From NCBI GenBank assembly GCA_034003325.1, contig JAVEYW010000008.1, positions 62,001-126,000 on the forward strand: a DNA stretch of 64,000 nucleotides. Reading direction: 5' to 3'. Shown in pieces: positions 1,587 through 14,514 of the stretch. The notes under the pieces are model-generated. The model ran no database searches and was not told the origin of the DNA. It saw only the letters and a list, made by a program, of their open reading frames with translations. Source of the stretch: Desulfobacterales bacterium (GTDB lineage: Bacteria; Desulfobacterota; Desulfobacteria; Desulfobacterales; JAFDDL01). Both the position numbers and the translations under genes were made by a program. Within the stretch, counting starts at the first letter, position 1. Each line of letters begins with the position of its first letter.

Positions 1587-1919
1587 GTAGATTTCTCCTT
1601 TGTGTCGTTCTTCTGCTCTGTTGGCGTCTTTCGGAACATCACCGTACAAGGCATTGCCAACGGGTGCGGCCAAGTGCTTTTTTACCGTTTTTTAAATCAC
1701 TTTCAGTTGGTTATAGACGGGCCACAAGCGAAAATCAAGGACGAATAAGGGATCACAGCTTATCCGCCCGCCGCAGCGATCAATAGGGACTTAACATTCA
1801 ACGGCTTCACCGTTTACAGTATCAAACAATTATAGTAGCATGCGCCTGTTCTGAAGCATTTGTGGTTATCCGCTCACAGGGCCTATTCTCAATATATTTC
1901 TCGGTGGGAAAGGGAGGGT

Positions 1920-2354
1920 ATGGATTCTGCCGGAATTGAAGATCTGCTGGTTCATCGCGGCCGCATGCTGTTGATCCGCCAAATTATTACCGTGAACATG
2001 ACAAAAGCCATCACCCGGGCATTGGTTACGGATCAATGGCCCCTGGTGAACAACGGGGGGGCCAATCCCCTGGTACTCATTGAAGTGGCGGCACAAACCG
2101 CGGGCGTATATAATAGTTGGCGGCTGCACCGGAAGCAGGGGCCGAATGCCGATCATCGCGGATGGATGGTGGGCATCAAGATCTCGCGTTTTTTCGTGGA
2201 CCGCATTCCCCTGGGAACCGAAATCATCACAGAGGCGCAAAATCAGTTTGAATACGACGGCTATCGCGAAATCCGGGGCGTCGCCACCATTCACGGCCAT
2301 ACGGCCGCGGATGTAACCCTTCAGATCATGCAGGCCGGCATAGAAAATTCATGA
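1920..2354 (+). CDS. Hot-dog fold 3-hydroxyacyl-ACP dehydratase-like protein (ApeP/FabZ type)
   Basis: A 144-residue single-domain hot-dog protein. The start is the ATG at 1920, right after a purine-rich ribosome site (GGGAAAGGGAGG). The N terminus has the LLVHRGRMLLI motif that marks FabA/FabZ/ApeP-like dehydratases, followed by the central 'ValLeuIleGluValAlaAlaGln' helix and a VGIK strand. In this family the enzyme removes water from 3-hydroxyacyl-ACP during chain extension, in the cytoplasm. It is the first gene of the plus-strand arm of the cluster and is followed by a ketoreductase 69 bases downstream, which fits an iterative reduction/dehydration cycle. Catalytic residues cannot be assigned with certainty, so a binding-only hot-dog role is an alternative. 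Confidence 0.8.
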   Translation: MDSAGIEDLLVHRGRMLLIRQIITVNMTKAITRALVTDQWPLVNNGGANPLVLIEVAAQTAGVYNSWRLHRKQGPNADHRGWMVGIKISRFFVDRIPLGTEIITEAQNQFEYDGYREIRGVATIHGHTAADVTLQIMQAGIENS

Positions 2355-2423
2355 CGACCCTGAATTTATCCCTCAGCAAACGGGCTGGAAATAAAACCAT
2401 TGGAATCAGGAGCGCAATTCATA

Positions 2424-3161
2424 ATGCATGAAAAGAACACACGTCCGGTGGCACTGGTCACCGGCGGCAGCAAGGGAATCGGCAGCGCCATTTGCGTGGA
2501 GATGGCAAGCAGCGGTTACTTTACCATTGTTAATTATCTGTCCGACAAAACGGGCGCTGAAGAGACGTTAAAAAAAATCAGGCAGCAGGGCAGCGACGGC
2601 ATGTGCCTGGGATTCGATGTAACCGATGCGGCGCAAACGGAAACGGCCCTGCAAACCATTTTCAGTCAATATGCCAGCGTGGATGCCCTGATCAACAATG
2701 CCGGTCGGATTGCCGATGAGCTTTTCATCATGATGACACCAGACAAATGGCGTTCGGTCATCGAGGTAACCCTGCAAGGCTTTTATAATGTCACGCGGCC
2801 TGTGCTTGAGAAAATGGTGGTGGCCAAAAAAGGGGCAGTGGTCTCCATTGCATCGGTGGCCGGCCTAATGGGCAACCGCGGCCAGGCCAATTATGCCGCC
2901 GCCAAAGCCGGTCTGATCGGCGCCAGCCGGTCGGTGGCTTCCGAAGTCGCCCGCCTCGGGATTCGGGTCAACGTGGTGGCGCCGGGCCTGATTCAAACCG
3001 AAATGATCAAGGATGCGCCGGTGCTGAAAATCAAATCCATGATCCCGATGGCCCGCCCGGGAACCGCGCAAGAGGTCGCCAAGGTCGTCCGTTTCCTGTG
3101 CTCGGACGATGCTGCTTACGTAACCGGCCAGGTACTCAGCGTGAACGGGGGGATGTTTTAG
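2424..3161 (+). CDS. 3-oxoacyl-ACP reductase (SDR family, FabG-like)
   Basis: A 245-residue short-chain dehydrogenase/reductase. The ATG at 2424 is chosen over an upstream TTG because AGGAG lies 11 bases ahead and the Rossmann motif begins soon after. Visible motifs are TGGSKGIG (NADP(H) binding, near residue 14), NNAGR, the catalytic Ser in SIASVAG, and the Tyr-x3-Lys pair in YAAAKAG. The C terminus ends VLSVNGGMF, as usual in FabG. The reaction is NADPH-dependent reduction of 3-ketoacyl-ACP to 3-hydroxyacyl-ACP. Its place between the dehydratase and the LolA-like gene matches the ketoreductase of aryl-polyene-type clusters, so it probably serves this specialised pathway rather than housekeeping fatty acid synthesis. 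Confidence 0.9.
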   Translation: MHEKNTRPVALVTGGSKGIGSAICVEMASSGYFTIVNYLSDKTGAEETLKKIRQQGSDGMCLGFDVTDAAQTETALQTIFSQYASVDALINNAGRIADELFIMMTPDKWRSVIEVTLQGFYNVTRPVLEKMVVAKKGAVVSIASVAGLMGNRGQANYAAAKAGLIGASRSVASEVARLGIRVNVVAPGLIQTEMIKDAPVLKIKSMIPMARPGTAQEVAKVVRFLCSDDAAYVTGQVLSVNGGMF

Positions 3162-3168
3162 CCACCCT

Positions 3169-3792
3169 ATGAAGCCTCAATACCCTTTTGTCCTGCATGT
3201 TATCGCTTATCTGTTGCCGCTGCTGGCCCTGCCTTTGGCCGCTTGGGCGGCTTCCCTGGAAGCCATTCAGGCCGCCGCCGGTTCGGTGAACTCGGTTCAA
3301 GCCGAATTTGTTCAGAAAAAGCACTTACCGATTTTGGAAAAGCCCCTGACGTCTACCGGCCTGTTTTATTTTCAGGCGCCGCGCTCGTTGCGCTGGGAAT
3401 ATCGATCGCCGATTCGCAGCATTCTTCTATTGCATGACGGCCGGGTCAAACGCTTTGTGGCCGAGGCATCCGGGTTCAGGGAAGAAAACGGCGCCGGCAT
3501 GCAGGCCATGCAAGTGGTCATGGAAGAAATCGGCCAATGGCTTAAGGGCGGTTTTGACAAAAGCCTGATGTTCGCGGCCGCTTCGGCGTCCGATCTGAAA
3601 ATCATTTTAACGCCCCGTGAAGCGGCCATGGCCGAAATCATTCAGCGGATTGAATTAAATCTTTCTCCGGAACCGGGTGTCATTTACAGCGTGCTAATCT
3701 ATGAAAGCGCGGATTCCTTCACGGAGCTGATTTTCAGCCGAACGATTCTCAACCGGGCCATCGCGGCCGACCTGTTCAATAAAACTCCATGA
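3169..3792 (+). CDS. LolA-like outer-membrane lipoprotein carrier protein of the cluster
   Basis: A 207-residue exported protein. A signal peptide covers about residues 1-28 (hydrophobic LLPLLALPLAAWA, cleavage near AWA-A). The mature part begins with a helix (LEAIQAAAGSVNSVQAEFVQKK) and strands including GLFYFQAPRSLRWEY, typical of LolA/LolB-like folds that carry acyl chains in an incomplete beta-barrel. In aryl-polyene clusters, LolA-like proteins are thought to ferry the lipid product across the periplasm. The gene starts 7 bases after the ketoreductase stop and overlaps the next gene by four bases (ATGA), so it is translationally coupled within the plus-strand operon. The actual cargo is inference. 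Confidence 0.8.
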   Translation: MKPQYPFVLHVIAYLLPLLALPLAAWAASLEAIQAAAGSVNSVQAEFVQKKHLPILEKPLTSTGLFYFQAPRSLRWEYRSPIRSILLLHDGRVKRFVAEASGFREENGAGMQAMQVVMEEIGQWLKGGFDKSLMFAAASASDLKIILTPREAAMAEIIQRIELNLSPEPGVIYSVLIYESADSFTELIFSRTILNRAIAADLFNKTP

Positions 3793-4475: not shown

Positions 4476-5750
4476 ATGAGATTCAAGCTGATATACCCCC
4501 GATGGACCAAACTCAGACACCAGACCGAATTTCATCTTCCGCCGCACGGGCCGGTGGTTTTTGCCGCCTGCCTGCCCACGGACGTCGAGGTGATGTTCAC
4601 CGATGAGAATCTGGAATCCATTGATTTTGACGACCCCGCAGATGTGGTGGGAATTTCCATGATGCTCAGCGTGCAGGTCAAGCGCGGCTGGCAAGTCGCT
4701 GACACCTATCGGCAAATGGGCGTCCCTGTGATTTTCGGCGGCATCGCGACCATGCTGCATGCGGAAGAAACCATGGGCCACGCCGATGCGATCTTTCTGG
4801 GAGAAGCCGAAGGCCGCATGGAACAGGTGCTGCAAGATCTTCGGCAAAACCGCCTTCAAAAAGTTTATGATTATCTGAATGACCGGCCCCCGATCGAATC
4901 CGTGGGGCCTGCCCGGCGCGATATCCTTAAAAAAGAACTTTATAATTACAAGGGCGTTCAGATGGTCGACCTCGTGCACGCGTCGCGCGGGTGCCGCTAT
5001 CACTGCTATCCTTGCGCCGTGGCCTATCTGGGGGGGAAACAATTCCGGCCGCGGCCCGTGGAAACGGCCATTGCGGAAATGGCCGGGATTGATAACCATC
5101 GGCTGTTTCTGGTGGATAACTCCCTGGCGCAGGACACCGAGTGGGAAATGGAACTCTTCCGTCAAATGATTCCGCTGAAAAAAAATTGGTGCGCCCATCC
5201 CATTGAAGATACGCCAAAGGTTCTGGATCTCGCGGCGCAAGCAGGCGCCTGGTATGTCTATCAGGCCGTGTTCGATACGTCCGACTATATTCGAGAACGC
5301 ATTCGGCGCTACCATGATCACGGCATCGGCGTGGAAGGCACGATTTTACTGGGTTTGGATCACCACACGGAAGATGAAATTCAGCGGCTGGTGGATTTTT
5401 TACTGGAGATTGAGCTGGATCTGGCCGAGTTTACGGTGCTGACCCCGTTTCCGCACACCAAGGCTTACGAGGCGTTAAAAAAGCAAAACCGCATTCTCTC
5501 CCATGACTGGGACGACTATTCGGCCGATAAGGTGGTATTTCAGCCGCAGCACATGCCCCCCGAACGGCTTCAGGAGTTGCTGGATTTCGCCTGGGACACG
5601 TTTTACCAGAATGAATCCCAGGAAATCAAAATGTCCAAACTCTTTCAGCGCGTGGTGTTTAAGGAAATGGCCGACAACACCTTCCGTCCCCGCCGCCGGG
5701 ATCTGCGCCGCCGTGCTTTCGGCCGCGATTATCAGGAGACTAAACGCTAA
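4476..5750 (+). CDS. B12-binding-type radical SAM protein
   Basis: A 424-residue enzyme. Residues 1 to about 140 form a Rossmann-like cobalamin-binding-type domain (ADVVGISMM and IFGGIATMLH segments, GEAEG motif); I see no clear DxHxxG cobalt-ligand motif. The radical SAM core follows with the cluster motif C-RYH-C-YP-C (CxxxCxxC, around residue 175), and glycine/glutamate motifs such as GTILLGLD. The C terminus is rich in arginine. Enzymes of this class use S-adenosylmethionine to make radicals for methylation or skeletal rearrangement of unreactive carbons. It is the last gene of the plus arm, 12 bases after the lipoprotein gene. A role in modifying the polyene or lipid product is inference; standard aryl-polyene clusters lack it. 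Confidence 0.8.
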   Translation: MRFKLIYPRWTKLRHQTEFHLPPHGPVVFAACLPTDVEVMFTDENLESIDFDDPADVVGISMMLSVQVKRGWQVADTYRQMGVPVIFGGIATMLHAEETMGHADAIFLGEAEGRMEQVLQDLRQNRLQKVYDYLNDRPPIESVGPARRDILKKELYNYKGVQMVDLVHASRGCRYHCYPCAVAYLGGKQFRPRPVETAIAEMAGIDNHRLFLVDNSLAQDTEWEMELFRQMIPLKKNWCAHPIEDTPKVLDLAAQAGAWYVYQAVFDTSDYIRERIRRYHDHGIGVEGTILLGLDHHTEDEIQRLVDFLLEIELDLAEFTVLTPFPHTKAYEALKKQNRILSHDWDDYSADKVVFQPQHMPPERLQELLDFAWDTFYQNESQEIKMSKLFQRVVFKEMADNTFRPRRRDLRRRAFGRDYQETKR

Positions 5751-5765
5751 GGGACAATTGCTCAC

Positions 5766-6575
5766 TCATGATATTTTCCCTTCCATCAGACCGCGCACCT
5801 CTTCCATCAGATTATCAATGGAAAAGCCGGGATCGTCATAGGACGGGGTGAGATGCGCCAGCAACTCCACCGAAATGGTGTTGGTGCAGCAAGTATTGAA
5901 CCGGAATTGGCCGGGTTTGAACAACCGGTCCGTATGGCGAATGAAAAGGACGCTCACGGGCGCCCGGCATAACCGGGCGATTTTAAACGCGCCCGGATGA
6001 AAAGGACCGATGGCGCCGGTGCGGCTACGGGTGCCTTCCGGAAAGACGAAAAGATTGGCGCCCCGGGCCAGATCCCCGGCCAGCGTATCCATGCGCTGAA
6101 TCATCAGTCCGGCCAGGCGGCCTTCGGTTGTGGACGGCAGATACCCGGAAAGCGTAAGCATCCATCCGAAAATGGGGAGATGAAACAGCCGGCTTTTGAC
6201 AATGGTCGTATGGTGGGGATACAGCGCGATCAGCAGCAGCGGATCAATATAGGAGACATGGTTGCACACGATCACCGAGGATCGAATGGCGCCCACGGCG
6301 TTATCGATGCGCCAGGTGTGACGGGGAATCAGCAGTCGGCAGAGCAGGAAAAACCCCCGGTAAAAATAATGGGTCAAGCGTTGAAACGCTTGGCGGCGCC
6401 GAGTCGCAACAATCGCCGCGACCAGATAAAAGGGCAGAAACAGCACCAGAAAGCCCACAGTAAAGTAGGCCCACAGAAGCAGGGTCACCGTCACATCAAT
6501 GCCGGCAAAAAACCATCCGGGCCGATGGGTCGACTGAACCGACATCTGCCCGGCCGGGCTCCCCATTTCAGCCAT
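5766..6575 (-). CDS. PlsC-family 1-acyl-glycerol-phosphate acyltransferase
   Basis: A 269-residue membrane-associated acyltransferase. An N-terminal hydrophobic segment (residues 22-55) anchors it. The catalytic NHxxxxD box is seen as NHVSYIDP and the second conserved box as FPEGTRS. These motifs define the LPLAT/PlsC family, which moves an acyl chain from an acyl carrier to a hydroxyl, usually of a glycerolipid. The start overlaps the ketosynthase stop by eight bases, so the two are coupled. It is the last gene of the minus arm and converges with the radical SAM gene at a distance of only 15 bases. The likely task is to attach the cluster's acyl chain to its lipid or sugar acceptor. Confidence 0.88.
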   Translation of the reverse strand: MAEMGSPAGQMSVQSTHRPGWFFAGIDVTVTLLLWAYFTVGFLVLFLPFYLVAAIVATRRRQAFQRLTHYFYRGFFLLCRLLIPRHTWRIDNAVGAIRSSVIVCNHVSYIDPLLLIALYPHHTTIVKSRLFHLPIFGWMLTLSGYLPSTTEGRLAGLMIQRMDTLAGDLARGANLFVFPEGTRSRTGAIGPFHPGAFKIARLCRAPVSVLFIRHTDRLFKPGQFRFNTCCTNTISVELLAHLTPSYDDPGFSIDNLMEEVRGLMEGKIS

Positions 6576-7809
6576 CCGTCTTTTGAATGAACAGGCAGGT
6601 GTTCACGCCGCCAAAGGCAAAATTCTGAATGGCGGCGATTCGGACCGGCGTCTGCACCATCTCGCGCACGTGCCGAATCATGGCGCACCGCGGGTCGACC
6701 TCGTCCAGGTTCAGGGTGGGCGCGACAAAACCCTCGTACATCATATATAAGGTGAGGATGGTCTCAATCACGCCGCAGGACGCCATGGTGTGCCCCATAT
6801 AGCTTTTCAGGCCTACTACCCGAGGCGTTGGTTGCCCATAGGCTTTGGCGATGGCCTGCGCTTCGATCACATCGCCCATCTTGGTGGCCGTGGCGTGAGC
6901 GCTGACCAGATCGACCTGGTCGGTGTTCAAACGGGCGCTTTCAAGGCCCAGGCGAATGGTCTGAGTGATGCCATCCAAATTGGGCAGAATCAAATCCCCG
7001 CCGTTATTATTACAGGCAAACCCAACCACCTCCCCGAAAATCGGTACGCCGCGCTTTTTCGCGGCTTCGTATTCTTCAAGCAGCACGGCGCCGGCGCCTT
7101 CCCCGACCACGAGACCATCGCGCCGAACGTCGAACGGCCGCGGCGTCAGGTGCGGCGTATCGTTGAAATCCACCGAGCAGGCCAGCAGGTTATCAAACAC
7201 CGCCACCGTGGTGGTATCATATTCATCCGCGCCGCCGCAGAGCATGGCATCCTGCAAGCCGAACTTGACCGCTTCATAACCGAACCCCAGGGATTGGCTG
7301 CTGGTCGTGCAGGCCGTGGACGAGGAAATCACTCGCCCTGTGATGCCGAACATCTTGGTGATGTTGACCGCGGTGGTATGCACCATCGATTTCAGGTAAT
7401 CCACGGCACCGATGCTGGAAAGCCCGGCCTCCGTTTGACCGAAAAAGGTCCGGTAAACCTGCCGTTGCACGGAAGGGCTGCCGTGCGTGGACCCAAACGC
7501 CACGCCCAGGCGGCCCGACGTGATAAACTCCCGGCTCAAGCCGGACTGCGCCAACGTTTCCTTGGCCACCTGGCAGGCATAATAGGATACCGGCCCCATG
7601 GTCTTGCGGTCTCCGCGCTTGAAATCATATTCAATCGGATAATCCACGGTGCCGAAAACGCCGGAATGAATGTGCTGGGTAATCAGGCCGTCGCTGCGCA
7701 ACGGTTTAACCCCTGAAACGCCCTTGGTCAGGGCGTCTACAATAGCCACCCGGCCGTGCCCAATGGGAGTAATGGCGGAACATGCCGTAATAACAACTCT
7801 TCTATTCAT
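6568..7809 (-). CDS. Beta-ketoacyl-ACP synthase (KAS II/ApeO-R-like)
   Basis: A 413-residue thiolase-fold condensing enzyme. The Cys-His-His triad is intact: Cys167 in SSTACTTSS, His305 in SAHATATKMGD and His340 in KSYMGHTMASCG. The loop around His305 reads HATAT where most KAS II enzymes have HGTGT or HGTAT, a small family-specific change. The enzyme joins a malonyl-ACP unit to the growing acyl chain. It follows the ACP gene by 18 bases. Known aryl-polyene clusters usually carry two or more ketosynthase-like genes, including a chain-length factor; only this one is present here. Its partner may be encoded elsewhere, or this enzyme may act alone. Confidence 0.92.
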   Translation of the reverse strand: MNRRVVITACSAITPIGHGRVAIVDALTKGVSGVKPLRSDGLITQHIHSGVFGTVDYPIEYDFKRGDRKTMGPVSYYACQVAKETLAQSGLSREFITSGRLGVAFGSTHGSPSVQRQVYRTFFGQTEAGLSSIGAVDYLKSMVHTTAVNITKMFGITGRVISSSTACTTSSQSLGFGYEAVKFGLQDAMLCGGADEYDTTTVAVFDNLLACSVDFNDTPHLTPRPFDVRRDGLVVGEGAGAVLLEEYEAAKKRGVPIFGEVVGFACNNNGGDLILPNLDGITQTIRLGLESARLNTDQVDLVSAHATATKMGDVIEAQAIAKAYGQPTPRVVGLKSYMGHTMASCGVIETILTLYMMYEGFVAPTLNLDEVDPRCAMIRHVREMVQTPVRIAAIQNFAFGGVNTCLFIQKTDG

Positions 7810-7827: not shown

Positions 7828-8109
7828 TTAATTGTTCGCAGCCGGCACGGTGCCGAAAGACCGCGCTATTGCCAGGTCCATCACATAATCCACAATCTGG
7901 TTGATGGTGCCGATGCCCATGGCCCGCTTTTTTTCTTCGCGGGTCAACTCGGAACCCAGCAGAATCTCGATTTCACGCAATAACTCGATGGCGTCAATGC
8001 TGTCGAACTCATAGGCCTCACGCAAATTTTCATTCAGGTCGGGTTGCTCGATCTCGAATTGCCGGGAAAACACCGTCAGCATTCGGGTCACTATTTCATC
8101 ACGCGTCAT
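7828..8109 (-). CDS. Acyl carrier protein
   Basis: A 93-residue acidic helical protein with the phosphopantetheine attachment motif DSIDAIEL; the modified serine is residue 37. The size and motif are those of type II acyl carrier proteins. It holds the growing acyl chain as a thioester between the ketosynthase, ketoreductase and dehydratase encoded nearby. It lies between the LpxL-like acyltransferase (74-base gap) and the ketosynthase (18-base gap). The C-terminal tail after about residue 80 (ARSFGTVPAANN) is longer than in housekeeping ACPs. Only one ACP is present, whereas aryl-polyene clusters often have two. Confidence 0.93.
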   Translation of the reverse strand: MTRDEIVTRMLTVFSRQFEIEQPDLNENLREAYEFDSIDAIELLREIEILLGSELTREEKKRAMGIGTINQIVDYVMDLAIARSFGTVPAANN

Positions 8110-8183: not shown

Positions 8184-9071
8184 CTAATGGCGCTTCGGTC
8201 CCAGAAACGGCTCAAAATGATACCACTCGAACGGTGTGCGGCGGAGTTGGTGTTCCATTAGATTCGCGTATGCTTGGATAGACCGGTCAATCGCCGAGCG
8301 ACGGTCCTTGCGGGACTGCGCAGGAACATAAACCGGAGGGGACACGCTGAAATGATAGGTGCGCCGGCCCGTTTTGGATGCGAAAAAAATAAAAAGCGGC
8401 GCGCCCGAAACCAAAGCCAACACATGGGGTGCCTCCGGCAGCCGAACCTCGCGGCCCAGAAACCGCACCGGTATCGCCCGCTGATCGCGCCGCCAGATTC
8501 TATCTCCGGCCATGGAAACAAAGCCGCCCGATTGGAGAAACGAAACCGCTTCCACCAGGGCAAAGGGAGAATCGCCTTCCCGGTCCACGGCCAGGACATG
8601 AATCCCGCCGGCTTTTAAATCGCGCTTTTGCAGATGCTCGATCTCGTCTCCTGCACGTTGGCCCATATAAAGCATCAGCCGCAACTCCGGCAGGCTTTGC
8701 TGTAAGAGGTGCGCCGCCACCTCCCAATTGCCCATATGGGTCATGAGCAGAATCCCCCCTTCGTTTTTCCGCATGGCTTGCAGCAAATGATCCCGCCCCT
8801 CGAAGCTGTAATCAATGCGCACGCCGTCCTGCAGCAAGTACCGGTCCAGAAACACAGAGGTGAAATTTTGAAATTGTTTCCAGGTGCACCTCAAATGCCG
8901 GCGCAGGCTTTGGTCCGGAAACAGCGCGCGGTAAAACCGGACACCCACAGCGACCCGCCGCGGGAACAAGAGAAAATACCCGGCCGCAATACCGCGCGAT
9001 ATCCCCACGAACACCCATGTGCCGAAGACCTTTGAGGCAAGCGTCAGCAGATGATAAAAGAGTTTACGCAT
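8184..9071 (-). CDS. LpxL/HtrB-like lipid A-type acyltransferase
   Basis: A 295-residue protein of the Lip_A_acyltrans family. A hydrophobic N terminus (residues 4-36) anchors it in the inner membrane. The catalytic HxxxxE motif is seen as THMGNWEVA, and a later GDRIWRRDQ segment matches the second conserved block. Such enzymes transfer acyl groups from ACP to a glycolipid. It follows the GT2 gene by 18 bases. In aryl-polyene clusters the corresponding protein is, as I recall it, a glycosyltransferase-acyltransferase fusion (ApeK type); here the same two activities are separate adjacent genes in the same order. A cluster-specific function is therefore likelier than lipid A synthesis. Confidence 0.85.
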   Translation of the reverse strand: MRKLFYHLLTLASKVFGTWVFVGISRGIAAGYFLLFPRRVAVGVRFYRALFPDQSLRRHLRCTWKQFQNFTSVFLDRYLLQDGVRIDYSFEGRDHLLQAMRKNEGGILLMTHMGNWEVAAHLLQQSLPELRLMLYMGQRAGDEIEHLQKRDLKAGGIHVLAVDREGDSPFALVEAVSFLQSGGFVSMAGDRIWRRDQRAIPVRFLGREVRLPEAPHVLALVSGAPLFIFFASKTGRRTYHFSVSPPVYVPAQSRKDRRSAIDRSIQAYANLMEHQLRRTPFEWYHFEPFLGPKRH

Positions 9072-9089: not shown

Positions 9090-9812
9090 TCATTGCGGCA
9101 TCCCGTGCATCACCCGTTGCGTGATCAGGCGCGTGAACATTCCGGTATTGCGAAGAAAATCGAAAAATGGGTGAAAATGGGAAATCCGCTCCCGGCCGGG
9201 CGGGTAGATCACACCGATGGGTGCCTCGATTACCGGTATTCCGTGCCACCCAGCTTTGACCAGCACCTCGATTTCGAATTGATAACGCCTGGCCGTAACG
9301 CCGAGGTCCAGCACTTCCGGTAATGGATAAATGCGAAATCCGCTTTGAGAATCGGTTGTCAGGGGCCCCCCTGCCATTTTGATCCAGAAATTTGAAAATT
9401 CACGGCCGAACCGGCTGGTCCAGGGCGCGCCAGCCGCCAGCATGGCCTTTCGGCATCCGACCACAATCGGTCGGGTTTCAGGGGGTACGTCACGCAAGGC
9501 CTGAATCAAAACATGCGCCTCTTCAGGGTCATGCTGACCGTCGGCATCCAGGGTAATCGCCCAATCGGCGCCCTGCGCAACCGCCGCCCGCATGCCGGTC
9601 AGCAAGGCCGCGCCTTTCCCCCGGTTAACCCCATGGCGCAACACGCAAACGGGGGGCGCATCCTGAACGGCATGAGACCCACCGTCGGTGGAGCCGTCGT
9701 CCACTACGATCACTGCAAACCCCGATTTCATGCATTTTCGAACCACGGCCGCAAGGGTGCGCCCGTGATTATAGACCGGTATCACGACGATAAACCGCTC
9801 GGGCAGAGTCAC
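9090..9812 (-). CDS. Family 2 glycosyltransferase (DPM/dolichyl-phosphate-mannose-synthase-like)
   Basis: A 240-residue GT-A fold enzyme. Motifs are VVIPVYNHG at the start, VVDDGST, and the metal-binding DADGQHDPE. It resembles soluble polyprenyl-phosphate or lipid glycosyltransferases. The start is placed at the GTG at 9812 because GGGGAGGAAGG lies just ahead and the catalytic domain begins at once. An in-frame ATG at 9905 that overlaps the upstream stop (ATGA) would add 31 non-conserved residues and lacks a good ribosome site. It sits directly before the LpxL-like gene. It probably adds a sugar to the product or its lipid anchor; donor and acceptor are unknown. Confidence 0.85.
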   Translation of the reverse strand: MTLPERFIVVIPVYNHGRTLAAVVRKCMKSGFAVIVVDDGSTDGGSHAVQDAPPVCVLRHGVNRGKGAALLTGMRAAVAQGADWAITLDADGQHDPEEAHVLIQALRDVPPETRPIVVGCRKAMLAAGAPWTSRFGREFSNFWIKMAGGPLTTDSQSGFRIYPLPEVLDLGVTARRYQFEIEVLVKAGWHGIPVIEAPIGVIYPPGRERISHFHPFFDFLRNTGMFTRLITQRVMHGMPQ

Positions 9813-9901
9813 TCGCCTTCCTCCCCGAGCACATGCACCCGCACCGAGTTCCAGATTCCGGAAGATCGAATCAACTTTCTCATTTTCATAAGATTCCCTC
9901 A

Positions 9902-11653
9902 TCATACGGCGGACGTTGGAATTGCCGGCAAATATGCCATAGCCCAGGTACCCGGCCCCATGTGAGCACCGGAGGTCAGAGACAGCGGTCGTACCATAAT
10001 TTCCGCAGCCGGCAGCAGGGTTTGAATTTGAGCGGCAGCCGCATTTTCCACCCAAAAGCGGTTGTCCGAATATTGCAACAGGACCAGGGGCGCGCTCTTT
10101 GAATTAAAGCGCTGCCGCAACCGCGTCAGGGCAAATGCCAGTTGGTCCTTCCGATGCCGGACCACGGCCACCTTAACCGCCCCTTCCCGGGTGGGTGAAA
10201 TGACCGGTTTAAGGCTCAGCAGATCTCCGCAAAATCCACGCGTTTTTGAAATCCTGCCGCCTGCGGCCAAAAACTTGAGCTGGTCCAGAAAGACCAATTC
10301 ACAACTCTCTTCCACCGCCGCATGGGCGAAATCAATGACCCGGCGGGCATCGGCACCGCCCCGGGCCAACCGTGCCACAGCCTGCGCGATGATGCCCAAA
10401 CGGCCGGAAGCTGCACCCGTGTCGATAACCGTAAAGCCATCCGCGCGCTCGTGCCGGGCCTGCCAGGTGAGCGCGGCCTGACAATTGCCGGTAAAGGCCG
10501 ATCCCACACACAAGTAAAGCACGGAATCAAACCGGCGGACGGCGCTCAGGTAAGATTGCTCCCGCTCAAAAATCGAGGCCTGAGCCGTGGATACCTGTTG
10601 GCCCTGCGCCATGGCCGCATACAGTTCGTCAGGATCAAAAAGCGTTTCCGGAAAGGCCCGATCCCCCATGACAAGATAGCTGTTCAGCAGGGTGATGCCC
10701 AGCGCGGCGGCATCCGCCTGAGTGATGGAGCCGGCGGCGTCGGTTATGATATGAACAGGCGCGGAAGGGCTGAACTGTTGAATTTCAGGCACCGCTGCAT
10801 CCATCGACTCTTCAGACCAGGCCAGCACTCGGCCGAGCACGTCCGCACGCTTGCGCAGCCGGGCGGTGTCTTCGGTATGCAAATGAAGTTTAAGACGGCC
10901 GGCGGATTCATTCAGCACCATGCTGTGTCCGCAACTTGAAAAGCGATGGCGGGCTTCGTCGACACTTATGTCGGCTTCAATCAGCGTATTGACGCAATAC
11001 CCGTTGCCAAGTTCGATGCGCCCCGGCCATTCAGCGGCGATTTTAAGCTTGCCCGGAAAAATATCCGTTACCGGCCGCAACGCTTCGGAACGCCCCGAAA
11101 GGCGGGCAAAAAATGCCTCCAGGCAGATAAAAACACCCAGGGCACCAGCATCGATCACACCGGCCCGTTTGACCGCGGGCAGGATATCCGCCGTGTCGGC
11201 CACCGCCTTTTCCATACAGTGAATAACCGAGGCGGCATTTTCAGCGGTCGCTTCCCAACCGTTGTCCGGCGGAACCATACCGGCCAGCGCATCGAACACC
11301 GACAGCATGGTGCCGGGTTGCGGATCACTGATGGCCTGTTTTGCTTTTTGCCGCCCCCGATGAATGGCCGCACCCAGCCCGCCCGTGATTTCGGCTTTCA
11401 GCAATTCGGCAAAAAAGGGGGCGGCGATATTTCCGCTGTTTCCGATTGCCGCCCGCATCAGACCCCGGACCGATACTTCCGCATCTTCGAACGGCCAACG
11501 TAACGGCGAAAGGCTGATCTTCAGGTTTCTCCCCGTATCCGCATCCGCCACGGGAAACACATTGATCTGATCCAGCAGCCCTGACCAGGCCGCCAGGCGT
11601 TCGTACCCAAAGCAAAGAGGACTATGGCGTTCCATCGTATTTTCTTTAACCAT
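9902..11653 (-). CDS. DAK2-DegV fusion: probable fatty-acid kinase (FakA-like + FakB-like)
   Basis: About 583 residues. The N-terminal part (to about 200) is a DAK2/DhaL-like ATP-binding domain with the aspartate signature INVFPVADADTGRNL, matching the FakA kinase signature. The C-terminal part (from about residue 300) is a DegV/FakB fatty-acid-binding domain: VHIITDAAGS start, VSTAQAS loop, GSAFTGN, LAAGGRISK and the final AHMGPGTWAM histidine motif. FakA and FakB are separate proteins in Gram-positive bacteria and together make acyl-phosphate from free fatty acid and ATP; here both are in one chain. The ATG at 11653 is taken as the start because the frame upstream overlaps the thioesterase gene and offers only TTG; ATG at 11635 is an alternative. 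The ribosome site is weak for either. Confidence 0.82.
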   Translation of the reverse strand: MVKENTMERHSPLCFGYERLAAWSGLLDQINVFPVADADTGRNLKISLSPLRWPFEDAEVSVRGLMRAAIGNSGNIAAPFFAELLKAEITGGLGAAIHRGRQKAKQAISDPQPGTMLSVFDALAGMVPPDNGWEATAENAASVIHCMEKAVADTADILPAVKRAGVIDAGALGVFICLEAFFARLSGRSEALRPVTDIFPGKLKIAAEWPGRIELGNGYCVNTLIEADISVDEARHRFSSCGHSMVLNESAGRLKLHLHTEDTARLRKRADVLGRVLAWSEESMDAAVPEIQQFSPSAPVHIITDAAGSITQADAAALGITLLNSYLVMGDRAFPETLFDPDELYAAMAQGQQVSTAQASIFEREQSYLSAVRRFDSVLYLCVGSAFTGNCQAALTWQARHERADGFTVIDTGAASGRLGIIAQAVARLARGGADARRVIDFAHAAVEESCELVFLDQLKFLAAGGRISKTRGFCGDLLSLKPVISPTREGAVKVAVVRHRKDQLAFALTRLRQRFNSKSAPLVLLQYSDNRFWVENAAAAQIQTLLPAAEIMVRPLSLTSGAHMGPGTWAMAYLPAIPTSAV

Positions 11654-11703: not shown

Positions 11704-12114
11704 CTAGCAAAAACCCAATGCACAGCGAATGTCATCGGGAATTTCAAATTCCAATTCCATCTCCGGATACCGGACCGCCACATGCTCGCTGGTGCCCCGG
11801 GCGCAGAGCGACCCGTCCCGCAGCAGACGAATTTCAAACTGCATCACGATCTTGTATTCGGCCTCGGTCACGGTCGCACGACACATAAACTCATCAAAAG
11901 GCCGCAACGGCGCTATGTGCTTGATGGAGGAGCGGGTCAACGGAAAAACAAACTTTTTATTGATCATGTAATCATACAAATCAATCCCGGCCGCGGCAAA
12001 AAGCCCGAACCGGGCCACATCAAAATATTTAAAATAATTGCCGTGCCAAACCACCCGCATGGGGTCCAGGTCGTGAAAGGCAACTTTCAAATTCACTTCG
12101 TAACTGTAACTCAT
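11704..12114 (-). CDS. 4HBT-type acyl thioesterase (YbgC/FadM-like hot-dog)
   Basis: A 136-residue hot-dog protein. The N-terminal motif HDLDPMRVVWHGNY matches the DxDxxxxVxHxxY signature of 4-hydroxybenzoyl-CoA thioesterase-type enzymes, in which the first Asp region is catalytic. The ATG at 12114 is used; a TTG four codons upstream is possible. It hydrolyses acyl-CoA or acyl-ACP. Its neighbours are an AMP-dependent ligase upstream and a fatty-acid kinase fusion downstream, so release of a free acid followed by phosphorylation to acyl-phosphate is a plausible sequence. Comparable thioesterases occur in aryl-polyene clusters. Confidence 0.87.
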   Translation of the reverse strand: MSYSYEVNLKVAFHDLDPMRVVWHGNYFKYFDVARFGLFAAAGIDLYDYMINKKFVFPLTRSSIKHIAPLRPFDEFMCRATVTEAEYKIVMQFEIRLLRDGSLCARGTSEHVAVRYPEMELEFEIPDDIRCALGFC

Positions 12115-12208
12115 ATTCAAGCACAACCAAATTATTCTCTAAAAAAATTCTAACCATCCAGTCGCCATTCGTACACCGACCGACCATCGAAAGGCAAGGT
12201 TGACGGGG

Positions 12209-13570
12209 TCATAAAAACATTCCCTCAATGGTTTTCCGATCGAATTTCCCGGTACCGGTGGTGGGAATTTTATCAATAATTTTGAAACGACGCGGGCAGG
12301 CATAAGCTTCTAACGCCTTCCGAGACGCCCAGGTCAACTCTTCCACACTCAAGTTTCCCTCGACCACGGCGACAATTTGGTTCTCGCGCGCCTTGCCAAC
12401 GGGCAGCGCAATAACCACGGCCTCCTCGATGCGCGGATCCTGTCTCAAGGTTTGCCGGACCGCTTCCATATCGACCCGCTTGCCGCCGACCTTAACGACA
12501 CCGTCGGCGCGGCCCAAGAGCATAAACCGGTTCTGCGCCGTGGCAACCGCCCGGTCACTCAATTGGAAATAGCCGTCGGAGGCTTCGATCAGGCCCGGTG
12601 AAAGATAGTCGGATCGAATCCGCATGGATTCCCCTTCTATTTGAAGATCGACGGATTCAAAAGGCGCAAAATCGACCTGCCCAGCGGCCCGAATGCGCGA
12701 GGCCACGCCGCCGGTTTCGGTGGAACCGTAAATTTCAACAATGTCAACGCCGGTCTGAGTGCTGAAGGCTTCCCCATCTTGGGCCGCAAGCAGACCCGCG
12801 GACGAAAAGGCCCGTCGCAGGGCAAGGGCCTTAAGCGGGTATCCGTTTAACGCACGGTAATGCGCCGGTACGCTAATTAAAAGGGTGGCTGCGCTTTCAC
12901 GCAGCGCCGTTTCGATTTCCGCCGGAAAAGACGGCGTGCATGCAAACACGGATGCCGAGGCGGCCACCGGCAGCAAAATGGAATACAGCAGACCGTAAAT
13001 ATGATGGGGATTGACCGTCGCCACCAGGCGATCACCGGCAGTTACCTGGTGCGTATCCTGCAAATAGAACGACTCGGCCAAAAGGTTGCGAACGGTTTTG
13101 GGCCACAGGCGCGGAGCGCCGGTGGTACCCCCCGTAAATAAATACATCCACGTTCTTTCGGGATTCACCGGCATGGATTCCGGCACCGGGGACCAGCGCC
13201 TTTCCGCGATACTCGGCACAATCCCCCGAACACCGGGCGGCAGGTCTCTTGGGCTGTCAATAATCGCGTGGCGAAAACCGGTCGATTGCCGCAACGCCTC
13301 AAGAACCTGAAGATCAAAGGCATAAGGCAGCACAAGCGTGAGACCGCCCGCCAGCGCAGCCAGCACGGCGGCTGCCGTTACGCCTCGATGGTCGGTGCAT
13401 AAGCAAACTACCTGTTCCACTGCGTTGTCGGCGCCGAAATATGCCCGAATATCGGCCGCCATGGCATAAACTTGCCGGTAAGTGGTCGTTGAGAGGAGAA
13501 ACTGTTTTTCAGGAAAAACGGGGCCGACCATCATCTGCGCAAGACGTCGTCTGAAATCCGCTTCCTTCAT
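12209..13570 (-). CDS. AMP-binding acyl/aryl-CoA or acyl-ACP ligase
   Basis: A 453-residue adenylate-forming enzyme, shorter than typical fatty acyl-CoA synthetases (over 500) and similar in size to the AMP ligases of aryl-polyene clusters. Motifs are LFTGGTTGAPR (ATP loop), IYGSTETGG (A5), and the C-terminal GTGKFDRK with the catalytic lysine. It activates a carboxylic acid, perhaps an aryl starter acid, as the acyl-adenylate and passes it to ACP or CoA. The start ATG at 13570 overlaps the stop of the MBL gene (ATGA), so translation is coupled; an upstream frame to 13600 lies inside the MBL gene. No aromatic ammonia lyase or chorismate lyase gene is seen nearby, so the substrate is unknown. 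Confidence 0.87.
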   Translation of the reverse strand: MKEADFRRRLAQMMVGPVFPEKQFLLSTTTYRQVYAMAADIRAYFGADNAVEQVVCLCTDHRGVTAAAVLAALAGGLTLVLPYAFDLQVLEALRQSTGFRHAIIDSPRDLPPGVRGIVPSIAERRWSPVPESMPVNPERTWMYLFTGGTTGAPRLWPKTVRNLLAESFYLQDTHQVTAGDRLVATVNPHHIYGLLYSILLPVAASASVFACTPSFPAEIETALRESAATLLISVPAHYRALNGYPLKALALRRAFSSAGLLAAQDGEAFSTQTGVDIVEIYGSTETGGVASRIRAAGQVDFAPFESVDLQIEGESMRIRSDYLSPGLIEASDGYFQLSDRAVATAQNRFMLLGRADGVVKVGGKRVDMEAVRQTLRQDPRIEEAVVIALPVGKARENQIVAVVEGNLSVEELTWASRKALEAYACPRRFKIIDKIPTTGTGKFDRKTIEGMFL

Positions 13571-14514
13571 CTCAATGGATCGGAATCTTTCAGGCACCAA
13601 CTTAAAAACCCCTTGATACTATTGGTTAAAAAAAACACTTCCCGTTCCCGCTCTGCTTCCGGCAATTGATCATAACCCACCAGCTCCGGATCTTCTGAAA
13701 GCAGCCGGTCAAGGCAACGCGTTACCAGATTCTCCGTGGGGCCACATTTGGCTTCCAATTCGATCACTCTTTCCCAAAAAAGAAGCTGCGCCCGGTGACG
13801 AACCAGGTATTGCGCCGCATCGGGTTGAAGACCGAAATGGCCATAGCAGATGGTATCGGGGTTCAGGGCGATCAAGGCATTCAAGCTGGACAGGGCTTTA
13901 TCAAGAAAGAACGTCGCGGGGGTGGCGGGCCGCATCCAGGATCGCCCGTCCGGCAGCTGAATACAGACGCCGCCAGCTTCACCGGCAAATAAATAATCGG
14001 GGGTTAGATAACTCACATGATGCGGCGAATGCCCGAGGGTCTCCAATGGCGTGATGGCAGGGGACTTAAACCGGTCTGCCGCCATGAGCAGCGGCGCAGG
14101 GACAGCGGTGAGGGGGCCATAAGCTTTTGCCGTTTCGCCAAGCGTGGTCAGGGAGCCGGCCCAAAGACGCTCCGGCGCCATCAAATGCGCGAGACCGTTT
14201 GCATGGACAACGATCGGGGTATCGGGAAAATGAAGAGACAACGCCCCGACGCCGCCCGCATGATCCAAATGAATATGCGTCAGAAGGATATAATCGAGAT
14301 GCGTAATCCCTATTTTTTGAAGCGCCTGCCGTAATAAAGGAACAGTTGCGGCCGGTCCGACATCCACGAGAACCGTAGAGGGCCCCTTATAAGCCCACGC
14401 CCCAATAAACCGCGAAAACCCCGCCAAGGGCGGGGTCAATTCAATAAGATACAGGTTGTCGGCATATGAATGAATAGGCGCTTTCAAATCAAAGTATCCG
14501 GCCTTGCGTGACAA
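13567..14514 (-). CDS. MBL-fold metallo-hydrolase
   Basis: A 315-residue metallo-beta-lactamase-fold protein. The metal motif THIHLDHAG is complete, with further histidines at HSPHHVSY and CYGHFG, so a dinuclear zinc/iron site is likely. The start appears to be TTG at 14514, since no ATG or GTG occurs before the fold begins. Such enzymes hydrolyse thioesters, phosphodiesters, lactones and similar bonds; the helical C-terminal extension (about residues 225-315) recalls glyoxalase II-like and flavodiiron-like relatives. It is the first gene of the cluster's minus arm and its stop overlaps the ligase start. It might act as an acyl-thioesterase in the pathway, but the substrate is unknown. It is not a usual member of aryl-polyene clusters. 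Confidence 0.8.
   Translation of the reverse strand: MSRKAGYFDLKAPIHSYADNLYLIELTPPLAGFSRFIGAWAYKGPSTVLVDVGPAATVPLLRQALQKIGITHLDYILLTHIHLDHAGGVGALSLHFPDTPIVVHANGLAHLMAPERLWAGSLTTLGETAKAYGPLTAVPAPLLMAADRFKSPAITPLETLGHSPHHVSYLTPDYLFAGEAGGVCIQLPDGRSWMRPATPATFFLDKALSSLNALIALNPDTICYGHFGLQPDAAQYLVRHRAQLLFWERVIELEAKCGPTENLVTRCLDRLLSEDPELVGYDQLPEAEREREVFFLTNSIKGFLSWCLKDSDPLR

Follow-up and report, generated by a model that had tools for sequence, protein, structure and literature searches.

A single-chain FakA-FakB fusion conserved in aryl-polyene/flexirubin-like gene clusters of sulfate-reducer-like bacteria, a candidate acyl kinase for envelope-lipid assembly

On the basis of domain order, residue conservation and gene context, we propose that one continuous reading frame in the window (the whole 64,000-nucleotide stretch of Desulfobacterales DNA analysed here) encodes a single-chain acyl (fatty-acid) kinase whose dedicated role lies in an aryl-polyene/flexirubin-like pathway for envelope lipids, a reading to which we give a probability of about 0.7. 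The frame extends from 11653 to 9902 on the minus strand and comprises 583 codons with zero stops; the starts of its homologues lie closer to an ATG at ~11635 than to 11653. Pfam models for Dak2, FakA-like_M and DegV match in a row, each above its curated cut-off (Table 1), in agreement with the original prediction of a FakA-like kinase joined to a FakB-like domain. The DegV assignment is strong both for PF02645 (143.5 bits, cut-off 27) and for TIGR00762 (151.4 bits, cut-off 99.7). The NCBIfam FakA/YloV models score below their cut-offs (TIGR03599, 135 of 396 bits; NF038248, 55 of 975 bits). FakA-like_C (PF13684), the C-terminal domain on which FakB docks, has no Pfam match in the chain even at E<=1, and DegV stands in its place, a replacement that the original prediction had not remarked on. 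With Dak2, middle domain and DegV present and PF13684 missing, the protein is therefore the N-terminal and middle parts of FakA followed by FakB: the carrier that is elsewhere a separate protein exchanging with FakA is here part of the same chain. In the source genome, which is 97.6% complete, no Dak2 or DegV gene was found besides this one.

Table 1. Coordinates of the fusion gene, its domains and the surrounding genes in the window
Feature	Position	Strand	Evidence and remarks
FakA(N+M)-FakB fusion, single chain, 583 aa	9902..11653	-	continuous ORF; Dak2 + FakA-like_M + DegV; AlphaFold2 model
Dak2/DhaL ATP domain (residues 34-181)	11111..11554	-	Pfam PF02734 6.2e-12; D37, D39, T40, N72 and D168 inside, N31 just before
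FakA middle (linker/dimerisation) domain (residues 218-286)	10796..11002	-	PF21645 FakA-like_M 5.2e-7; triad C220-H257-H259
DegV/FakB domain (residues 300-576)	9926..10756	-	PF02645 1.1e-41; R467 and H564 inside
GT2 glycosyltransferase	9090..9905	-	PF00535 1.8e-21; downstream neighbour in 35/74 distinct loci
LpxL-like acyltransferase (Lip_A_acyltrans)	8184..9071	-	PF03279 6.8e-14; conserved neighbour
Acyl carrier protein	7828..8109	-	PF00550
Beta-ketoacyl-ACP synthase	6568..7809	-	PF00109/PF02801
PlsC-type acyltransferase, ApeD-like position	5766..6575	-	PF01553
4HBT thioesterase, immediately upstream of the fusion	11704..12126	-	PF13279 3.1e-13; upstream neighbour in 30/74 distinct loci
AMP-ligase	12209..13600	-	PF00501; top NCBIfam model 4-coumarate-CoA ligase TIGR02372 9.1e-29, below cut-off
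MBL-fold hydrolase, overlapping the AMP-ligase ORF	13567..14514	-	PF00753
B12-binding/radical SAM protein	4476..5750	+	conserved in cluster
Predicted lipoprotein-like protein, 224 aa	3789..4463	+	conserved in cluster; no Pfam or NCBIfam match
LolA-like carrier	3169..3792	+	PF03548
Ketoreductase	2400..3161	+	flexirubin reductase FlxB model 280 bits (cut-off 340)
Hotdog dehydratase, FabZ-like, weak	1860..2354	+	TIGR01750 5.7e-6; conserved

Far from being an isolated oddity, the fused FakA-FakB protein forms a conserved clade in sulfate-reducer-like bacteria. It is encoded as one chain in ~30 of the 395 genomes sampled over the phylum (a count that includes two copies, G083 and G117, that contig ends or gaps interrupt), mostly at full length, with 42-48% identity and no inner stop. 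An artificial joining of two genes by a frameshift, raised in the original prediction, is ruled out because so many genomes carry the uninterrupted chain. An alignment-based scan of GTDB genomes found further members of this group, here class A, in Desulfobacteraceae, Syntrophaceae/Smithella and Desulfobulbaceae/Desulfocapsa, in single metagenome-assembled genomes of Geobacter, Spirochaetes and Myxococcales, and in the isolate Allochromatium palmeri, with identities reaching 57%. The same scan revealed a second set of full-length single-chain FakA-FakB proteins, class B (L134-L163), with ~25-29% identity to class A, hosted by Marinimicrobia, Aminicenantes, Acidobacteriota, Gemmatimonadota, KSB1, Woeseiaceae, Thermotogales and others. 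Those tested have the Dak2-M-DegV order of class A, with higher scores. In trees of both halves, class A is one clade with 100/100 support, set on a long branch and separate from class B and from split FakA and FakB; class B is not resolved as a single group, and with their long branches and few split sequences these domain trees do not fix the number of fusion events.

The residues that Fak catalysis depends on are retained. In Staphylococcus aureus these are N32, D38, D40, T41, N82 and D185 and the middle-domain C240, H282 and H284 of FakA, and R173 of FakB1 (PMC9136124). Alignment places FakA N32, D38, D40 and T41 at N31, D37, D39 and T40 of the fusion, within the NVFPVADADTGRN motif that the original prediction had read as a DAK2-type aspartate signature, so that the Asn and two Asp that hold Mg in a DhaL domain are N31, D37 and D39; N72 and D168 are the further counterparts. 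C220, H257 and H259 align with the Cys-His-His of the FakA middle domain. The DegV motif set, likewise claimed to be complete, is found in full: TAQAS, the S/T-G loop, GGRIS with R467 and GAHMGPGT with H564. R467 corresponds to FakB1 R173 by position in the GGR motif, the FakB1 numbering not being aligned directly, and the FakA of 7w7h enters the residue alignment as a fragment whose columns past the middle domain are meaningless. In an alignment of 27 rows, N31, D37, D39, T40, D168, C220, H257, R467 and H564 are invariant and N72 and H259 nearly so, and over 33 class A sequences the catalytic residues are kept, apart from N72 and H259, each of which has a single exception. The ATP-binding aspartates, whose absence would have spoken against a kinase, are thus present and conserved. 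That the fusion might be a non-catalytic carrier or regulator, its kinase activity lost, could be read from the weak FakA-model score (NF038248) and from the long branch of the class A clade; since the triad and the residues that contact ATP, Mg and phosphate are invariant or nearly so in the 33 class A sequences, we hold it to be highly improbable.

An AlphaFold2 model of the fusion, built from the family alignment, reached a pLDDT of 86.8 and a pTM of 0.88. Its top Foldseek match in the PDB over the full chain is FakA of the Streptococcus suis FakA-FakB2 complex (7w7h, E 1.7e-19, ~611 columns), with a low TM-score that presumably reflects domain placement, and the next matches are DegV/FakB chains. 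Taken separately, the DegV part superposes on 1pzx and 2dt8 (TMt 0.85-0.86) and the N-terminal part on the S. aureus FakA N-domain 8vip (TMt 0.76). Could the DegV-like part nevertheless be FakA's own C-domain? This was ruled out by the lack of a PF13684 match, by the FakB catalytic Arg and His and by its separation from FakA_C in the tree. The essential Arg and the conserved His near the carboxylate in FakBs are R467 and H564 in all class A rows. In the C-domains of split FakAs from the same phylum, the site of the Arg is occupied by E and that of the His by Y or C; R and H are shared with FakBs and absent from these domains, and the C-terminal part is therefore a catalytically equipped FakB. 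Class A binding-site motifs differ from those of canonical FakBs, with T388 for the S of the SG motif, and therefore the ligand may differ as well.

The fusion locus is part of a conserved gene cluster that, as predicted from its genes, is of aryl-polyene/flexirubin-like type. A minus-strand run of genes for MBL hydrolase, AMP-ligase, 4HBT thioesterase, fusion, GT2, LpxL-like acyltransferase, ACP, KS and PlsC-like acyltransferase faces a plus-strand run for dehydratase, KR, LolA, lipoprotein-like and radical SAM proteins. The thioesterase gene ends 50 bases upstream of the fusion start, and the fusion TGA overlaps the GT2 ATG (ATGA); the two genes sharing this overlap are therefore probably translationally coupled. 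On the same contig, ~10-25 kb before the window start, lie genes for an MMPL-methyltransferase, KS, KS, a second 4HBT thioesterase, a dehydratase, an ApeI-like dehydratase and a KS-containing 722-aa protein. Thus the aryl-polyene/flexirubin core of KS, KR, DH and ACP is accompanied by transport (LolA, MMPL) and acyltransferase genes, and the ApeI dehydratase model scores above cut-off at L065:1472-1834. Over 74 distinct loci, the upstream neighbour of the class A fusion is a 4HBT thioesterase in 30, an AMP-ligase in 19 and an aromatic amino-acid lyase in seven, and the downstream neighbour is GT2 in 35 and LpxL-like in seven; at least three core pathway families occur at 62 of the 74, many loci being cut by contig ends. 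For these counts two duplicate loci (same contigs) were removed, L050, L058, L088, L113 and L125 were excluded because ORF picking had missed the fusion gene, and genes were labelled by phmmer, from matches of single sequences to proteins of the window and to a set of nine reference proteins. The MBL-fold hydrolase adjoins the fusion essentially only in the source genome. The position between thioesterase and acyltransferase genes noted in the original prediction is therefore real, while its 'lipid cluster' has to be narrowed: lipid genes are present, but the conserved neighbours mark an aryl-polyene/flexirubin-like rather than a general lipid cluster. An MMPL exporter with a fused C-terminal methyltransferase domain is conserved in these clusters (L164:10314-13436, L093:2978-6058), as are several radical SAM/SPASM proteins (L164:8497-9570, L164:18785-19783, L039:13977-15080).

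An aromatic amino-acid lyase (PF00221) or AMP-ligase adjacent to the fusion at many loci, together with the changed class A binding-site motif, might suggest that the substrate is a short aromatic acid, coumarate or hydroxybenzoate, and that the kinase activates the polyene starter unit instead of a long-chain acid. In the known flexirubin and aryl-polyene pathways, however, the AMP-ligase already has the job of starter activation, the solved DegV-fold relatives with a named ligand bind long acyl chains, and the partner acyltransferase is of PlsY type; we judge an aromatic substrate to be improbable. No dedicated polyene-type lyase was seen in the source genome, whose one PF00221 gene (672 bits, on another contig) is probably a histidase.

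PlsY requires acyl-phosphate (PMC11633183), and a divergent PlsY is associated with the fusion. This partner acyltransferase (ACYLTRANSFERASE) was recognised in L051, where it lies 7 kb away from the fusion, beside the MMPL gene (PF02660, 3.5e-32), and it keeps the PlsY motifs SGN..N and GGKGVA. With the L051 protein as query, 16 of the 395 genomes gave matches of at least 135 bits, after which scores drop to 79 bits. The divergent PlsY is found in 15 of the 30 fusion genomes against 1 of the 365 others (Fisher p 4.6e-18), or by family in 7 of 13 against 1 of 95 (p 4.7e-7), p-values that are optimistic, the genomes and hence the family and genome counts being related. In L111, L166, L167, L168 and L169 its gene is the last of a KS-KS-thioesterase-dehydratase operon, with a similar arrangement in L173, and in L051, L100, L171 and L172 it lies beside other polyene genes; among the copies looked at, that of the fusion-less genome G210 (L170) alone has no polyene genes around it. 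Members of the subfamily (L100, L111, L166-L169, L051) often adjoin a ~300-aa protein that, in its source-genome form, matches PS-DH dehydratase. The source genome itself lacks the divergent PlsY; the single PlsY found there is of the ordinary kind, and nothing links it to the cluster.

Because the source genome also lacks PlsX (PF02504), a housekeeping role in place of PlsX was considered, in which a general fatty-acid kinase supplies acyl-phosphate to the ordinary PlsY for membrane phospholipid and the position in the cluster is incidental. Such a role would fit a genome with PlsY, without PlsX and with the fusion as its only FakA or FakB, seven related genomes of one family (f41) that are also without PlsX and carry only the divergent PlsY, and the class B fusions that adjoin plsY. 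Against it, PlsX is missing throughout the order as sampled here (17 genomes, of which 14 have PlsY), whether or not the fusion is present; over the phylum sample it is found in 19 of the 30 fusion genomes and 263 of the 365 others (p=0.30, no association); and the class A fusion is firmly linked to the polyene cluster. With PlsX presence alike in fusion and other genomes, PlsX replacement was rejected as a general role, and we regard a housekeeping kinase as unlikely. In most of the 17 order genomes, a search with the fusion as query found no Fak-like protein.

How might such a kinase serve the making of a polyene lipid? The adjacent thioesterase would free a long-chain carboxylic acid (the polyene acid or else a fatty acid) from its ACP. 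The C-terminal DegV (FakB) domain would bind this acid and the DhaL domain would phosphorylate it in place, generating an acyl-phosphate, so that the route from free acid to acyl-phosphate put forward in the original prediction is still the best reading of the sequence for the single-chain fusion. The acyl-phosphate might then acylate a glycerol-phosphate or glycolipid acceptor to give the polyene lipid, by way of the dedicated divergent PlsY where present and otherwise through the housekeeping PlsY or the acyltransferases of the cluster. As the carrier is covalently attached, we propose that the FakB-docking C-domain is dispensable and has been replaced by FakB itself. Conservation of the fusion in polyene-type pigment-lipid clusters suggests that lipid is built through an acyl-phosphate intermediate, and cluster linkage, the divergent PlsY and the class B genes placed before plsY all support a single-chain acyl kinase feeding acyl-phosphate to polyene-lipid assembly. 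The more specific scheme, in which acyl-phosphates would carry an entire branch of polyene-lipid biosynthesis in bacteria, the kinase acting on the finished polyene acid (or on the fatty acid that is its partner) and a PlsY specific to the pathway passing the product to a glycerol-phosphate anchor, is tentative, with a little less than an even chance of being right. Several observations run against the proposed role: half of the fusion genomes, the source genome included, are without the divergent PlsY, the class A DegV domains depart from canonical FakBs at binding-site motifs, and the Escherichia coli aryl-polyene cluster works without such a kinase (PMC8253772).

If the proposal is true, acyl-phosphate chemistry is used outside housekeeping phospholipid synthesis. 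How polyene acids come to be joined to their lipid anchor is a question that the aryl-polyene literature consulted regards as only partly solved, and the proposal suggests an answer open to test. A conserved Gram-negative Fak in a single chain, linked with a pigment-lipid cluster and with a PlsY of its own, would be a simple one-polypeptide system for studying how the FakA-FakB active site forms. Searches of the openly licensed literature turned up neither a paper about a FakA-FakB fusion nor one about DegV proteins with aryl polyenes; fatty acid kinase is described as a Gram-positive two-protein system, and Gram-negatives are said to use acyl-CoA instead (PMC11633183). The original prediction had called the arrangement unusual for a Gram-negative lipid cluster. 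The lineage is indeed Gram-negative, but the gene belongs to a conserved clade and single-chain Fak also occurs elsewhere beside plsY.

With FakA (YloV) and FakB (DegV) of Firmicutes the fusion has in common a DhaL ATP domain and its Mg/ATP residues, the middle-domain Cys-His-His and a FakB fold that contains both the essential Arg and the conserved His (PMC9136124); it differs in being one chain and not two, in having no FakA_C docking domain, in its Gram-negative host and polyene cluster, and in the class A motifs YTGN/FTGN where the Firmicutes have LSGT. Class B is like class A in domain order and length, and unlike it in sequence, in its canonical FakB motifs and in its contexts, which are a plsY operon or others without polyene genes; plsY lies directly 3' of the fusion in seven loci (L134, L138, L143, L151, L154, L157, L158) with a gap of -3 to 23 bp. 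The class spans several candidate and Gram-negative phyla, an example being L151:9908-12357, directly upstream of plsY. The E. coli aryl-polyene cluster (apeA-R; PMC8253772) and the Chitinophaga flexirubin cluster (PMC3992019) have most functions in common with the fusion cluster, namely KS, KR, dehydratases, ACPs, thioesterase, AMP-ligase, PlsC- and LpxL-type acyltransferases, GT2, LolA and MMPL, and flexirubin clusters have an aromatic amino-acid lyase, as do fusion loci. ApeJ is one glycosyltransferase/acyltransferase, whereas GT2 and LpxL-like proteins are encoded by separate genes in the fusion cluster, and the E. coli paper (PMC8253772) mentions no Fak-type kinase. Finally, the proposal shares with the PlsX/PlsY pathway the use of acyl-phosphate by a PlsY family, with the difference that the acyl-phosphate would arise from free acid and ATP rather than from acyl-ACP, and that the associated PlsY forms a subfamily of its own.
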